Of a stretch of DNA of 47,892 nt, positions 10,092 to 41,627 are shown one piece after another. Under the pieces are notes generated by a model. That model saw nothing but the letters and a program-made list of their open reading frames with translations. It searched no databases and was not told the origin of the DNA. The translations under genes were made by a program, and so were the position numbers. The stretch comes from Methanosarcinales archaeon. GTDB taxonomy: Archaea; Halobacteriota; Methanosarcinia; Methanosarcinales; Methanocomedenaceae. The first letter of the stretch is position 1. Each line of letters begins with the position of its first letter. The stretch is from assembly GCA_021108405.1 (NCBI GenBank), contig JAIOQW010000181.1, positions 1 through 47,892 of the forward strand, written 5' to 3'.

Positions 10092-13000
10092 ATGCGCAAT
10101 ATAACTATATACGGATCAATTATTATTTTTATAATACTAACATTTTCTCTTGTATCTACTAACGCTTACCAGGTACATGAAGCTGTTAATACCAATGACC
10201 AAAATGCAATACTATTGAAAAACGCACAGTTCACTACTACTGATTATACCCCACAAGCGGTACAATCAGGGCAGGTATTGTCGTCGATTCCTAATGATAC
10301 CGAAGGTTATTATATTGTACAGTCTACGAGTTATGTAACTGATGAGTGGAAACAGAGTATAACAGATACAGGCGCAGTACTATTTAATTATATTCCGAAA
10401 AATGCCTTTATTGTACGGATGGATTCCCATGTATTGGCACGAGTAGAAGCGCTGGATACTGTTCAATGGATCGGCATTTACCAGCCAGATTATAAAATAA
10501 GTCACGGACTCTCGGGATCTTACCCCACATACTCAAATGCAGAACAAGCAATCTATACGAATATTACTGTACTGCTGTTCGATGCGCAGGAAAGTATGCA
10601 TATATCAAATGAGATACAGGCACTGGGCGGCATTGTCATGGGCAATGCAGGAGATACCTTACTGGTCAGGATCGAAAGTTCGAAGATAGCTGATATCGCT
10701 GCTATACCAGGAGTTTGCTGGATGGAGGAGCGCAGTAGGTTTGTAATATTAAATGATGTAACTACCAATATCACGAATGTCTATGAAATTCGAAATAGCC
10801 ATGGTTTAAACGGCAGCGGGCAGATAGTGGCTGTGGTAGATACAGGGCTGGATACGGGTGTTAATGATGCTTCAATGCATGATGACCTTGAAGGGCGGAT
10901 CATTGAGATATTTGATACTGCCGGAGATAATGATGTAGCAGATATATTTGAAGGTCATGGAACACATGTTGCAGGATCAGTACTTGGCGACGGCTCTTGC
11001 TCTAACGGGCAGTTCAAAGGGATGGCACCACAGGCGCAACTTATATTTCAAGCGGGTGGTTTATCGAATGATTGGTTAAATTTACCTTTAGACCTAAAAG
11101 ACCTTTTTTTCCAGGCATATGATAACGGAGCAAGAATCCATACAAATAGTTGGGGAACAGAAGATGAAATATATTATGGAAATTATACATCTCAATCACA
11201 GAGCGTTGATTCTTTCTTATGGAATCATCCTGATATGGTAATTCTTTTTGCAGCAGGAAATGAAGGATCTGAAAATAATACTGTTTCAACGCCTGGTACT
11301 GCTAAGAATTCTATTACTGTTGGAGCGTCTGAAAACAATAGAACAAACAACGGCACAACATCTGATAATATTAATGATATTGCTGATTTCAGCAGCAGAG
11401 GACTTACAGACGATAACAGGATCAAACCTGATGTTGTTGCACCTGGTACTTATGTTATTTCGACAAAATCAAGTAAAGCAAGGAGTACAATGGGATATGG
11501 TGACTATGATGCAAATTACACATATGGCAGTGGAACAAGTATGTCCACTCCCATTGTTGCAGGTATAACCGCACTTATCAGACAGTACTATTTGCAAAAT
11601 GAAAGTATATCACCCACTGCTGCTTTAATAAAAGCCACATTAATAAACGGTGCTGTCAATCTGAGTCATCCTCGAAATGACCAGGGCTGGGGACGTGTGG
11701 ATATTGAAAACTCTCTGTTTCCAGCATCACCAAGGATCATGAAGCATCATGATAACATCAGTCTGAGTACATCCGGATCATGGAATATTAAATATTATTC
11801 TATCAACAGTTCCCAACCACTACGAGTTACTCTGGTATGGACTGACTATCCGGCTGCAGTCTTTGCTGGAACAATGCTGGTAAATGACCTCGACCTGACA
11901 GTAGCAGGTCGTCCCGGTGAAACGTATTTAGGAAATGGCGGTGACAGCATAAATAATGTTGAACAGGTTGAACTAATATCTCCCGTAGATGGTATGTATA
12001 ATATCACAGTGAAAGGTACCAATATTCCACAAGGAGGATCACAACCGTTCGCGCTGGTCATCTCAGGTGCACTTGACCTTCCACCCTCAATTTCAGCTGA
12101 GTACCCTGCAAGTAATTCATATACAGGCAATAATACCACTTTAGTATATGTCAATATCACAGATACTGGAAGTGCAGTTAATGAGAGTTCTATTAATATG
12201 ACCATAAACGGTGAACTTGTTAATATCACAACTACAACAATTACCAATGGTTTTAAAGTACAGAACCTAACAACTGAGGCTTACAATGAAGGTATTGTCA
12301 CCTGTTCGGTAAATGCCTCTGATAATAATTCAAACCTTAAGACTTACTCATGGTCATTCACAGTAGATATCACACACCCAACTTCCAACACTCCGGCAGA
12401 TACGAACTATGCGGCTGATACTACTGTAAATTTCACAAACTGGATCCTCACTGACAAGCACCCCGGATACTACCGGGTACTGCAAAACGGCACTCAAATA
12501 ATGGATTCCATACAATGGAACAATGATACGAATATTACAGTACCTGTAAATACCAGTGCTGGTATAGGTGATTTTAACTATACGATCCAGTATAACGATA
12601 GTGCAGGTAACAGTGGTATACAGGACACAGTTAATATTACTATAACTGATGAGACTCCACCCATATTATCCAATAATACTCCTGCAAACGGAACCACTGA
12701 CCTCAAACCTACTATCAGTATAAATGCAACAGATGGAGGTTCATACGTCAATGTCAGCAGTGCAAATATGACAGTGGACGGTATGCAGGTAGTTCTTACC
12801 AATACCAGTCCGGCAGTAACATATAAATTTTCAAATGATACAACAACTACATACAACCACGGCGATACAGTTAATGTAACATTCAGTGTTTCGGATAATG
12901 CAGAACATATATCAAATAAATCATGGATGTTCTATATTGATAATGTTGCACCCTTTATCAGCATTACATTACCAGTTAATAACTCATCAACTTCGGGGAG

Positions 13001-13952
13001 CTCAATAACAGTCTCAGGCACAGTCAACGGCACAGGTTCACCGCCTGATATTACTATTACTAACAGTACCGGTACTATCGATACCACACTTACTAACTTT
13101 AACGGTACTTTCAGTGCATCGGTACCTCTATTAATGGGATCGAATATCATTTATGCAAACGTCAGCGACCAGGCAGGAAATACCAATACTACGTTTATTA
13201 ATATTACACGCACCAAGGCAGTATATCAATCAAGCAGTAGCGGAGGCAGCAGCAGCGGCGGAGGTGGGAGTAGTGAAGCGTATGAGAACATTGAGGTAAA
13301 AGAAACACAAAGAGTGTATGTCAGTAAATACCACCAGATCGAATTCTTTTTTGAAAAAATTGAGAATGATATTGAGTATATTAAATATAGAGCACTAAAA
13401 AATGCCGGAACATTATCCGCAACCATTGAGATATTGAAAGATACTTCTACAATAGCCGGAAAACCGCCATCAGGAATAGTATATCAGAATATCAATATCT
13501 GGATAGGTAATAAAGGTTATGCGACTGAGAAAAATATGGAAGATCCTGTGATCGGATTTAAAGTAAAGAAGAAATGGATGGAAGACAATGATCTTGAACA
13601 CGGTTCCATCACACTCAACCGCTATCACAATGAAGAATGGATCCAGCTACCAACATCAAAGATCAATGAGAGTACATCGTATATATACTTCGAATCACAG
13701 ACAACAGGGTTCTCACCTTTTGCAATTACAGGACCTAAAAAGCTACATACCTCATCATCGTCTTCGCAATCCCCGGAGGATGCCACATCCGGTACAGATG
13801 AACCAGCATCTACAGGGTCAGATCAAGAAGAAGAAGAAGAATCTATACTTGATAAGATTTTTTCAATAAATGGTATAGGAGCGGAGGGATCTCTTGTTGT
13901 GTTAGCAATATTGACAGGTTTTTTAATATATATCAGGAGACGGAAAGAGTAA
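10092..13952 (+). CDS. Large cell-surface S8 peptidase with Ig-like repeats and PGF-pre-PGF domain, 1286 aa
   Basis: The first 660 or so residues closely match the upstream subtilase, with signal peptide, two N-terminal modules and catalytic Asp250, His289 and Ser485 (GTSMSTP). From about 660 the protein differs. Three or four Ig-like beta-sandwich repeats (about 660-1030), very rich in N-x-S/T sequons, lead to a Ser/Gly linker (about 1045-1060). A PGF-pre-PGF type domain (about 1063-1220) follows, then an acidic linker and a C-terminal membrane helix with an RRRKE tail. The layout indicates a glycosylated, surface-anchored protease. GGGGGA precedes the ATG. It likely arose by tandem duplication followed by C-terminal domain exchange. 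Confidence 0.93.
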   Translation: MRNITIYGSIIIFIILTFSLVSTNAYQVHEAVNTNDQNAILLKNAQFTTTDYTPQAVQSGQVLSSIPNDTEGYYIVQSTSYVTDEWKQSITDTGAVLFNYIPKNAFIVRMDSHVLARVEALDTVQWIGIYQPDYKISHGLSGSYPTYSNAEQAIYTNITVLLFDAQESMHISNEIQALGGIVMGNAGDTLLVRIESSKIADIAAIPGVCWMEERSRFVILNDVTTNITNVYEIRNSHGLNGSGQIVAVVDTGLDTGVNDASMHDDLEGRIIEIFDTAGDNDVADIFEGHGTHVAGSVLGDGSCSNGQFKGMAPQAQLIFQAGGLSNDWLNLPLDLKDLFFQAYDNGARIHTNSWGTEDEIYYGNYTSQSQSVDSFLWNHPDMVILFAAGNEGSENNTVSTPGTAKNSITVGASENNRTNNGTTSDNINDIADFSSRGLTDDNRIKPDVVAPGTYVISTKSSKARSTMGYGDYDANYTYGSGTSMSTPIVAGITALIRQYYLQNESISPTAALIKATLINGAVNLSHPRNDQGWGRVDIENSLFPASPRIMKHHDNISLSTSGSWNIKYYSINSSQPLRVTLVWTDYPAAVFAGTMLVNDLDLTVAGRPGETYLGNGGDSINNVEQVELISPVDGMYNITVKGTNIPQGGSQPFALVISGALDLPPSISAEYPASNSYTGNNTTLVYVNITDTGSAVNESSINMTINGELVNITTTTITNGFKVQNLTTEAYNEGIVTCSVNASDNNSNLKTYSWSFTVDITHPTSNTPADTNYAADTTVNFTNWILTDKHPGYYRVLQNGTQIMDSIQWNNDTNITVPVNTSAGIGDFNYTIQYNDSAGNSGIQDTVNITITDETPPILSNNTPANGTTDLKPTISINATDGGSYVNVSSANMTVDGMQVVLTNTSPAVTYKFSNDTTTTYNHGDTVNVTFSVSDNAEHISNKSWMFYIDNVAPFISITLPVNNSSTSGSSITVSGTVNGTGSPPDITITNSTGTIDTTLTNFNGTFSASVPLLMGSNIIYANVSDQAGNTNTTFINITRTKAVYQSSSSGGSSSGGGGSSEAYENIEVKETQRVYVSKYHQIEFFFEKIENDIEYIKYRALKNAGTLSATIEILKDTSTIAGKPPSGIVYQNINIWIGNKGYATEKNMEDPVIGFKVKKKWMEDNDLEHGSITLNRYHNEEWIQLPTSKINESTSYIYFESQTTGFSPFAITGPKKLHTSSSSSQSPEDATSGTDEPASTGSDQEEEEESILDKIFSINGIGAEGSLVVLAILTGFLIYIRRRKE

Positions 13953-39594: not shown

Positions 39595-39669
39595 GGGACA
39601 GTAGGGTAGCCTGGCCGATCCTCGAGCGTTTGGGACGCTTGGACTGCGGTTCGAATCCGCGCTGTCCCA
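39595..39669 (+). tRNA. tRNA-Pro (anticodon TGG)
   Basis: The acceptor arms GGGACAG (39595-39601) and CTGTCCC (39662-39668) pair completely, with A as discriminator. The anticodon arm has stem GAGCG/CGCTT around the loop TTTGGGA, giving anticodon TGG for proline. The T arm reads GCGGTTCGAATCCGC. The CCA end is not encoded. No intron is visible. Confidence 0.93.
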
Positions 39670-39875: not shown

Positions 39876-39946
39876 GCCACAGAGAGCACAGAGATGCCTT
39901 TTCAGTTCCCAACTCCTATCTCTGTGCTCTCTGTGACCTCTGTGGT
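39876..39946. repeat. CCACAGAG-type hairpin
   Basis: GCCACAGAGAGCACAGAGAT pairs with ATCTCTGTGCTCTCTGTG...CTCTGTGG further on, around an unrelated loop. It has the same stem as the hairpin at 20560 but lacks the TATCCACTTCAAA end. Confidence 0.7.
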
Positions 39947-40071
39947 AGTCATATAGAGTTCAAAATTACACTTGCGGAGTAGTATAATTGAAATCAAAGC
40001 GTTAAAAATAACTCTAGAATTGAAGGAACATCAAAAAGTTTTTCGGAGATACTGAATAACCGAGACCGTTA

Positions 40072-40204
40072 CATTACATGTTGGTACTATTAAAATAACC
40101 GCAGATGAACACAGATAAACACGGATACGCTGCCTGAAAATCTGTGTTCATCTGTGTTTATCTGTGGTTTCATAAGATTCACCAACACGAATTGTAACGG
40201 TCTC
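40072..40204 (-). mobile_element. 133-bp MITE, copy B, with 8-bp target duplication
   Basis: This is the inverted counterpart of copy A at 9801, with the same length and the same termini (GAGACCGTTACATT...TGTAACGGTCTC). The flanks GAATAACC (40064-40071) and GAATAACC (40205-40212) form a perfect 8-bp direct repeat. The inner palindrome differs from copy A mainly by paired C/G to T/A changes (CGCGGAT versus CACAGAT). No coding capacity is present. Confidence 0.9.
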
Positions 40205-40358
40205 GAATAACCGCAACCTTTTAATAGTCAACACTCCAATATTGACCTATATCCATTCCAGTTGGTGAGAAACAATACGAGTTCTGGAAACAGGCTTGAA
40301 AGAACTGATGACCCAACAATAATAACAGATGAACTGTTTGTAAAATAGAGGAGCTTGT

Positions 40359-41627
40359 ATGAATATCAGCATAACAAAAGCTATAAGAAAAATGGCGGGT
40401 TGGTGCCCGAATGTTAGCTTGACAAATAAAGAGGAGGAAATGATTATGGAAATATATAAGAAAGAGTATATTCGCAAAATAAAAGGTATTGGATTCAATG
40501 GAATTACCGCAATACTGCATCTTGTGTATGCGTTTTGGCTGGTAGGTACAGCACTATGGGTTCTGGCAGGGATTAAATTATTTCCTTGGTATGTACTGGA
40601 TATTACGTTTATATCTTCTGGAATCCTGCTGATAATTGGTGTTACTTCACTAATGATTTTCCTTAATTTTATTAAATCTGCTAATATTCACAGGGTATTG
40701 GCTGCGGTGAATATAGTATTGATTGTGGTTTTTTTCATGTATCTGAGCCAGACTCTCATATCATATGAACCGAAAATTACACTGATTACCCTGTTTGAGA
40801 AACCATTTTATTACTATACTTTTAGTATAGTCTCGCTTACACTTTTCACAATAATTCTAGGATTTCCAAATTTAATTACCCTTCTAAGTAAACCCACTGA
40901 AGAACGTAAAATTAAATTCTTTGCAGCATCGCTTTTTACTCTCATCGTCACATTTGCTCTTATTGGTGGCTATTATTTTTATTTAAATATGCAAAAGGAC
41001 AGCATGATATTAGAAGATTATGGGGATGGCGGGTATAGAATATATCAGATGGGTTCAAATATCTATACTATGAGCGGATTATGTACGGAAGACTACCCAT
41101 ATTTCCTTGATTCCTATGAAGGCACTTCAGGACATCCGATTTCAGGTGATTCATATGAAGCTATACAATTCTTAAGGACTAAAGAAAACAGCAATGTACT
41201 GGGGTGGTGGGACTACCAACTTCAGATCAAAGCTGCAGATAAGGAACCCATTATTACTTATGCGTCCAATGAAATGAAGCATACTGTGGGCAGACCGTCG
41301 CAATTATACGATAAATTCGAGTCAAATGAAAAGGTGGTTGACGTTTCAACTTTTTTCACTACTGATTCCGAGGAAACAGCAGTTAGTATTGCTGAGAAGT
41401 ACGAGGCAAAATATGTGTATATCTTGCTGCAGAGATGGGATGTTTATTACAAGATCATGCTTTATACGGTTCAACCGGATATGATTGAAAAAATCTATAC
41501 ATCTGAGACGCTTTTAAACGAATTATATGAAGTGTCGATGGCATATAAATTTAAAACCGGGGCGGAACTGGAATACTTTGATAAGATATTCGAAAATAGG
41601 GATGTTGTGATTTATCAGTTGAAATAA
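40359..41627 (+). CDS. DUF1673-like membrane protein fused to an AglB/STT3-type C-terminal domain
   Basis: This 422-residue protein begins with a short motif KAIRKMAGWCPN (8-18), typical of the Methanosarcina DUF1673 family. Four to six membrane helices follow (about 45-205). The outside-facing C-terminal domain carries EAIQFLRTKENSNVLGWWDY (267-286), then EPIIT, and VVDVSTFFTTDSEETAVSIA. This is the arrangement of the globular domain of oligosaccharyltransferase AglB/STT3, where WWDYG helps bind the acceptor sequon. The catalytic multi-helix domain with the DxD motifs is absent. It cannot be a complete oligosaccharyltransferase; it may bind sequons or be an accessory subunit. AGAGGAGC precedes the ATG. 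The 133-bp MITE lies about 150 bp upstream. Confidence 0.72.
   Translation: MNISITKAIRKMAGWCPNVSLTNKEEEMIMEIYKKEYIRKIKGIGFNGITAILHLVYAFWLVGTALWVLAGIKLFPWYVLDITFISSGILLIIGVTSLMIFLNFIKSANIHRVLAAVNIVLIVVFFMYLSQTLISYEPKITLITLFEKPFYYYTFSIVSLTLFTIILGFPNLITLLSKPTEERKIKFFAASLFTLIVTFALIGGYYFYLNMQKDSMILEDYGDGGYRIYQMGSNIYTMSGLCTEDYPYFLDSYEGTSGHPISGDSYEAIQFLRTKENSNVLGWWDYQLQIKAADKEPIITYASNEMKHTVGRPSQLYDKFESNEKVVDVSTFFTTDSEETAVSIAEKYEAKYVYILLQRWDVYYKIMLYTVQPDMIEKIYTSETLLNELYEVSMAYKFKTGAELEYFDKIFENRDVVIYQLK

Follow-up and report, generated by a model that had tools for sequence, protein, structure and literature searches.

The open reading frame at 40359 to 41627 of the window, by which we mean the whole analysed stretch of 47,892 nucleotides from a Methanosarcinales archaeon, was found to encode a protein that joins a five-helix membrane part of the MGWCP/DUF1673 type to a homologue of the core of the oligosaccharyltransferases (OSTs) AglB and STT3, a composition confirmed by sequence profiles and a predicted model. 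Further, and new here, sequence comparison indicates that the first gene of the operon containing the fusion gene codes for an uncharacterised helix-turn-helix (HTH) regulator, termed C1. We judge it somewhat probable that the fusion protein is the membrane partner of a two-gene archaeal signalling module resembling BlaR1/BlaI, with a pseudo-OST sensor and a regulator of genes for the envelope and N-glycosylation. This reading starts from the homology and synteny observed, from which we infer the signalling, the ligand and the regulation. The protein and its parts are located as follows.

40359 to 41627, + strand: DUF1673-type membrane protein with an AglB/STT3 central-core-like domain, 422 aa; intact open reading frame with an ATG start.
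40398 to 40409, + strand: GWCP motif, residues 14-17, in the predicted cytoplasmic N-terminus; from conservation in 25 sequences.
40488 to 40985, + strand: five predicted transmembrane helices, residues about 44-209; from the AlphaFold model and hydropathy peaks.
41145 to 41624, + strand: AglB/STT3 central-core-like domain, residues about 263-422, predicted extracytoplasmic; from Foldseek matches to 3vu0/3vgp and profile matches.
41205 to 41213, + strand: WWD, residues 283-285, the Trp-Trp-Asp of the OST Ser/Thr-binding pocket; invariant in 25/25 sequences.
41436 to 41459, + strand: WDVYYKIM, residues 360-367, aligned with the DK/MI motif, with Tyr in place of the pocket Lys; from alignments.

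A first-pass annotation of the window had proposed the fusion of a DUF1673-type part to the globular domain of AglB/STT3, pointing to WWDYQ and to the stretch FFTTDSEE...AEKYEAKYVYI, both of which we located in this frame (residues 283-287 and 332-355, respectively). The single protein gave sub-threshold Pfam matches to PF22627 (AglB_core-like, E = 0.15) and to DUF1673 (PF07895, E = 5.5; 7.3 bits against a gathering score of 30.4), and in a phmmer search of the PDB its top three matches were STT3/AglB globular domains with weak E-values of 0.8-1.3. A full-length profile of 11 homologues matched AfAglB-S1 (3vgp) at 5e-5 and AfAglB-S2 (3vu0) at 4e-4; 10 of the 11 profile members matched DUF1673 (best 1.4e-8) and four matched AglB_core-like (best 1.7e-4). 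With a core-only profile, STT3/AglB/PglB chains in the PDB were matched from 1.7e-9, and one of 19 matches was unrelated (E 0.33).

The AlphaFold model of the fusion protein had a mean pLDDT of 76, with 80-96 over much of the core, and placed helices at residues 46-70, 77-101, 108-130, 157-175 and 185-216. When the model was compared with the PDB by Foldseek, AglB C-terminal domains led the matches, with E-values between 3.8e-6 and 4.8e-5 and TM-scores of 0.65-0.77 across the target domain; AfAglB-S2 (3vu0) came first (E 3.8e-6, TM-score 0.77). The fold of the central core (CC) unit of the OST globular domain was recovered by Foldseek and profiles, and a chance WWDY resemblance was rejected on this fold match and on the core-profile matches to STT3/AglB/PglB. 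The structural similarity extends beyond WWDY, contrary to the outcome that the first-pass annotation had named as refuting its proposal. The proposed combination was thus borne out by profiles, fold comparison and conservation, and full-text literature searches found no earlier description of it. By motif, topology, operon and the scores of its homologues the protein belongs beside DUF1673, though by its own score it falls outside. The MGWCP motif has been noted for DUF1673 (PMC4158269), for which the papers retrieved describe no function; in the fusion proteins G14, W15 and P17 were invariant and C16 nearly so (n = 25 aligned sequences).

The core was the best-conserved region of the fusion protein, with a mean pairwise identity of 0.56 compared to 0.45-0.48 in the other regions. 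In OSTs, the pocket for the +2 Ser/Thr consists of Trp-Trp-Asp plus the Lys of a DK motif or the Ile of an MI motif (PMC3703281). WWD was kept in all 25 fusion sequences, whereas the next two positions of WWDYG varied (Tyr to Y/F/P/S and Gly to Q/E/G/A/T). The DK/MI motif was not recovered, the Lys column being occupied by Tyr (WDVYYKIM in the window) or Leu (MNDLIPVM in Methanoperedens); it was complete, as DxxKxxx(I/M), only in the deep member L051 and in relatives of family f10. In the window's clade WWDYG has thus lost its Gly and the DK motif its Lys, so that the sequon binding suggested for this domain is conjectural. No match to the STT3 catalytic domain PF02516 was obtained in a Pfam domain search of the frame, even at E<=10, in agreement with the earlier observation that the catalytic membrane domain is missing. 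Because this domain is missing and the DK motif is lost, the fusion protein does not count as an oligosaccharyltransferase. Elsewhere in the window, positions 10092-13949 encode a secreted S8 subtilase-like protein of 1286 aa with 50 N-x-S/T sequons (23.5 +/- 4.2 in shuffles), the sequon-rich secreted protease to which attention had already been drawn.

The survey of relatives covered 186 genomes of the order, many of which are fragmented MAGs, and related genomes are not independent events. A single-sequence scan of the genome contigs returned no fusion relatives and a profile scan returned 30 loci; the full-length homologues gathered by single-sequence and profile searches shared 34-56% identity along the whole protein. 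Full-length fusions, an architecture that the first-pass annotation had proposed to seek in Methanosarcinales, were present in families f1, f2, f3 and f5 and absent from f4 among these genomes, and the architecture was intact in 25 aligned sequences from the ANME-2, Methanoperedens and GoM-Arc1 lineages of methane-oxidising archaea. The named contigs came from Ca. Methanoperedens, ANME-2 cluster archaea, ANME-2c and a GoM-Arc1-type genome, and the few records titled Caldiserica or Archaeoglobales are probably mislabelled MAGs. Family f4 was assigned to the Methanosarcinaceae, and f6, f9 and f10 to other groups, by kinship alone. Weak f4 matches to the fusion profile were discarded, being mostly long open frames (about 640-865 aa) of AglB-type genes; among those listed, one exception was short and DUF1673-like. 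Matches at loci L018, L019 and L022 were likewise set aside as spurious or ordinary, L018 reading as an unrelated membrane protein. In one Methanoperedens (L048, 3816-5618), the fusion protein is preceded within the same reading frame by a second GWCP/DUF1673-type protein, to give 601 aa.

C1 has 148 residues: its N-terminus forms an HTH, its middle is beta-rich, and four residues, His99, Cys103, Cys106 and Cys112, make up an invariant cluster (H-x3-C-x2-C-x5-C). A Pfam search assigned it to no family, and the nearest NCBIfam model was Tfx (TIGR00721), at 15-16 bits against a cut-off of 60.25 (E 0.009-0.017). The N-terminal helices of its model resembled LuxR-type HTH domains, with a weak fold match (best Foldseek E 0.076); the better matches of a fold search that was weak overall included an archaeal transcription factor and LuxR-type HTH domains. 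C1 was found upstream of the fusion gene in 23 of 27 loci, and two of the four loci lacking it lay at contig edges. Stop and start overlapped by four bases (ATGA) in 15 of the 23 and by 20 bases in two, and in the remaining six at least one gene intervened, mostly DUF1673 and, in L047, also a compact AglB gene. Tandem DUF1673 arrays followed C1 in f1, f4 and f5, with fusion genes in the same operons; in f4, which comprises Methanosarcina-type genomes, the arrays behind C1 consisted of plain DUF1673 genes without the AglB-like domain. Of 85 genomes that have DUF1673 or the fusion, 84 also have C1, compared to three of the 101 that have neither (Fisher p 4e-48, the genomes being related). Taken together, the comparison showed C1 at the head of predicted operons of MGWCP/DUF1673 membrane proteins across Methanosarcinales. 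A compact AglB gene lay inside the C1 locus in four Methanoperedens genomes, and either a gene for a Yip1-like membrane protein or ABC genes of the MacB/FtsX type occurred in the vicinity of C1 operons or downstream of the putative C1 operator described next (L213, L214, L111 and L121).

An inverted repeat, GTMAA-N10-TTKAY, was located between the TATA box and the start codon, within the last 45 bp before the latter, in 57 of 57 distinct C1 promoters, compared to 0.45% of random windows. The same repeat was present in all three f6 C1 promoters, and fusion genes outside a C1 operon (G056, G059 and G037) have a copy of their own next to the start. A strict form, TAGTMAAY-N8-DTTKAC, occurred at seven sites in the 3.67-Mb window genome, and once in the reversed control. 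Two sites precede OST genes, AglB-L at 2 bp and a compact AglB at 13 bp; others precede the window locus, two GWCP/DUF1673 genes and, on contig 22, an intact C1 followed by DUF1673. A further match, on C173, is probably due to chance, as no known partner gene stands behind it. The genome has four OST (STT3) genes, and the putative operator was absent before the other two. A 174-aa GWCP protein is encoded directly upstream of AglB-L (L070, G000:C107, 5683-6204, - strand), with one operator copy per gene.

Sites before AglB were observed in the window genome only, the listed site in most genomes searched being the one before C1. A link of C1 to AglB transcription would draw on one genome and on the AglB linkage in the four Methanoperedens loci. 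The earlier suggestion that the fusion protein regulates AglB gained support in a transcriptional form that had not been foreseen, namely an HTH-regulator operon and a putative operator before two AglB genes. In Methanosarcina-type genomes, extra strong sites at larger distances look like they precede envelope-type genes, read from sequence alone as LolA-like lipoproteins, MacB/FtsX-type ABC genes and an ABC exporter.

With its catalytic part gone, and with a regulator next to it whose probable site lies before OST genes in the window genome, the core gives the impression of an enzyme domain that was retired and put to new use in sensing. In the signalling module that we favour, the cytoplasmic GWCP N-terminus would hold or modulate C1, and the outer AglB-like domain would report on the envelope, where the most appealing signal is how acceptor peptides or glycoprotein are supplied or what state they are in. 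C1 would bind the inverted repeat and thereby adjust the operon that it heads as well as envelope genes, AglB among them, probably as a repressor, because the putative site overlaps the promoter. A narrower version, in which a catalytically dead OST core on the outer face of the membrane senses N-glycosylation by binding unglycosylated sequons and controls C1 via GWCP, setting AglB and envelope gene levels, is doubtful; the window's clade lacks the pocket Lys, and its ligand may have ceased to be a sequon. To our knowledge, no sensing mechanism is known for archaeal N-glycosylation or S-layer assembly.

OST cores were also found on other anchors, as core-only matches in short open reading frames in a phylum-wide search. 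The f6 protein consists of GWCP, one helix and the core, and lies directly behind C1 in three of three loci (L152, L154 and L155), a recurrence of the pairing in another order. The f10 protein has one helix and the core, lacks GWCP and retains the full DK motif, and the f9 core follows a lipobox-like signal; neither has C1 nearby.

L145-L151, L153 and L156-L158: orphan AglB-core proteins of the f10 or f9 type, no C1 nearby.

The core tree, in which the root is not fixed, gathered the 25 fusion cores (C0) into a single clade (99/98); f10 and f6 stood next to it, while the STT3 rows were separate and reached by long branches. By sequence, orphan OST cores make up a wider family on three anchors: five-helix GWCP, single helix and lipoprotein-like. 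The f9 signal supports an extracytoplasmic placement of the core domain, and the f9 and f10 cores suggest that the domain is able to serve without C1.

These orphan cores, which with the full DK motif of f10 look capable of binding Ser/Thr, also bear on a different explanation, along the lines considered in the first-pass annotation, namely that the fusion protein is an OST accessory subunit whose anchored core binds AglB or acceptors and presents, protects or times the acceptors, the C1 operon only setting its dose. The invariant WWD and the compact AglB genes that adjoin the fusion gene in several Methanoperedens loci would fit such a role. However, the strongest and most conserved linkage is with the regulator rather than AglB, many fusion genomes have no AglB gene nearby, and the window's clade is missing the WWDYG glycine and the DK lysine, so that we find this explanation unlikely. 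The same losses, with Tyr or Leu in the Lys column of the C0 clade, could instead mean that the AglB-like domain has become a generic extracytoplasmic module for a ligand or peptide, having given up sequon recognition for another envelope cue and leaving the glycosylation link historical. In line with this, the candidate regulon elsewhere is of a general envelope kind (lipoprotein carriers and ABC systems), and plain DUF1673 proteins share such operons in Methanosarcina-type genomes. WWD nevertheless stays invariant, and the putative operator stands before two AglB genes in the window genome, both of which speak against this proposal and leave us sceptical of it.

At the window copy of the fusion gene C1 is damaged, and the upstream region contains the following features.

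40219 to 40226, + strand: TATA-like box TTTTAATA of the operon promoter; a T/A-rich box stands directly before the repeat in 56-57 aligned C1 promoters.
40225 to 40246, + strand: putative operator TAGTCAACACTCCAATATTGAC, a GTMAA-N10-TTKAC inverted repeat; exact match and the only one in the window.
40249 to 40357, + strand: C1 remnant; from tblastn with the L039 C1 protein and reading of the bases.

The remnant keeps the first 14 and last 22 codons of C1 (tblastn with L039 C1: residues 3-14 at 40255-40290 and 126-147 at 40292-40357). Its start has changed from ATG to ATA, about 110 internal codons are deleted with a frame shift, a TAG stands at 40346-40348 and one base is missing at the end. 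The fusion gene starts 112 bp behind the putative operator.

Several repeats were observed nearby. A MITE-like element at 40061-40205, just upstream of the remnant, has terminal inverted repeats of 25 nt (CGAGACCGTTACA... / ...TGTAACGGTCTCG, 88%) flanking an inner 30-nt inverted repeat, and may have had a part in the local C1 deletion. A perfect 18-nt inverted repeat, CACAGAGAGCACAGAGAT, lies at 39878-39935 behind a tRNA-Pro (39595-39669). On contig 70 (L002, G000:C70, 610-720), the decayed 3' end of a second fusion-gene copy with downstream DNA was found, adjoining an apparent broken subtilase-like gene.

Decay of the locus, with the window frame as a functionless relic, would be consistent with the C1 remnant, with the 3'-end fragment on contig 70 and with the in-frame stops in some relatives (L037, G049 and G084). 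It is nonetheless improbable, given 422 intact codons, all family-invariant residues, and a promoter and operator that have been kept. In the signalling module, the local C1 being deleted and the promoter and operator kept, the window copy would come under control in trans, which is possible because contig 22 carries an intact C1. A split or minimal OST, catalytic with a membrane subunit from another gene, can be practically dismissed despite the core domain and the sometimes adjacent compact AglB, as the frame has a five-helix DUF1673-like membrane part and no STT3 domain, compact AglB has a core of its own and the genome already has four STT3 genes.

Compared to the central core of AglB/STT3/PglB (PF22627, PF21436; 3vu0), the fusion protein has the fold, the element order and WWD in common, and the alignment spans the DK-motif region. 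It differs in lacking the 13-helix catalytic domain, DXD and TIXE, in keeping only the WWD of WWDYG invariant, in the loss of the DK lysine in its clade and in its DUF1673-type anchor; the substrate-binding domain of an enzyme would here be reused without its catalytic partner. With DUF1673 (PF07895; arCOG06827, the MGWCP proteins expanded in Methanosarcina) it shares the N-terminal GWCP, the multi-helix part and the C1-headed operons, and it adds the C-terminal AglB-like domain, the window protein scoring far under the Pfam cut-off. DUF1673 can thereby be paired with an HTH regulator of its own, and a candidate operator is at hand. C1 is weakly similar to the archaeal Tfx family (TIGR00721) in its N-terminal HTH and unlike it in scoring far below the cut-off and in having its own beta-rich middle and His/Cys cluster. 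A single regulon hypothesis would tie the orphan OST cores to AglB genes, and it is testable in the genetically tractable Methanosarcina, which has C1 and DUF1673 arrays, and with purified domains.

The closest parallel in design is BlaR1/BlaI (MecR1/MecI), which senses beta-lactams through a sensor domain derived from the fold of the target enzyme and controls the gene of that enzyme. The fusion protein is not a member of the BlaR1 family, because no sequence relation was found and the HExxH metalloprotease motif is absent from its sequence. Like that system, the proposed module combines an outer domain of target-enzyme fold with a co-encoded HTH regulator, and a palindrome, here a putative operator, is common to the operon and the enzyme gene.
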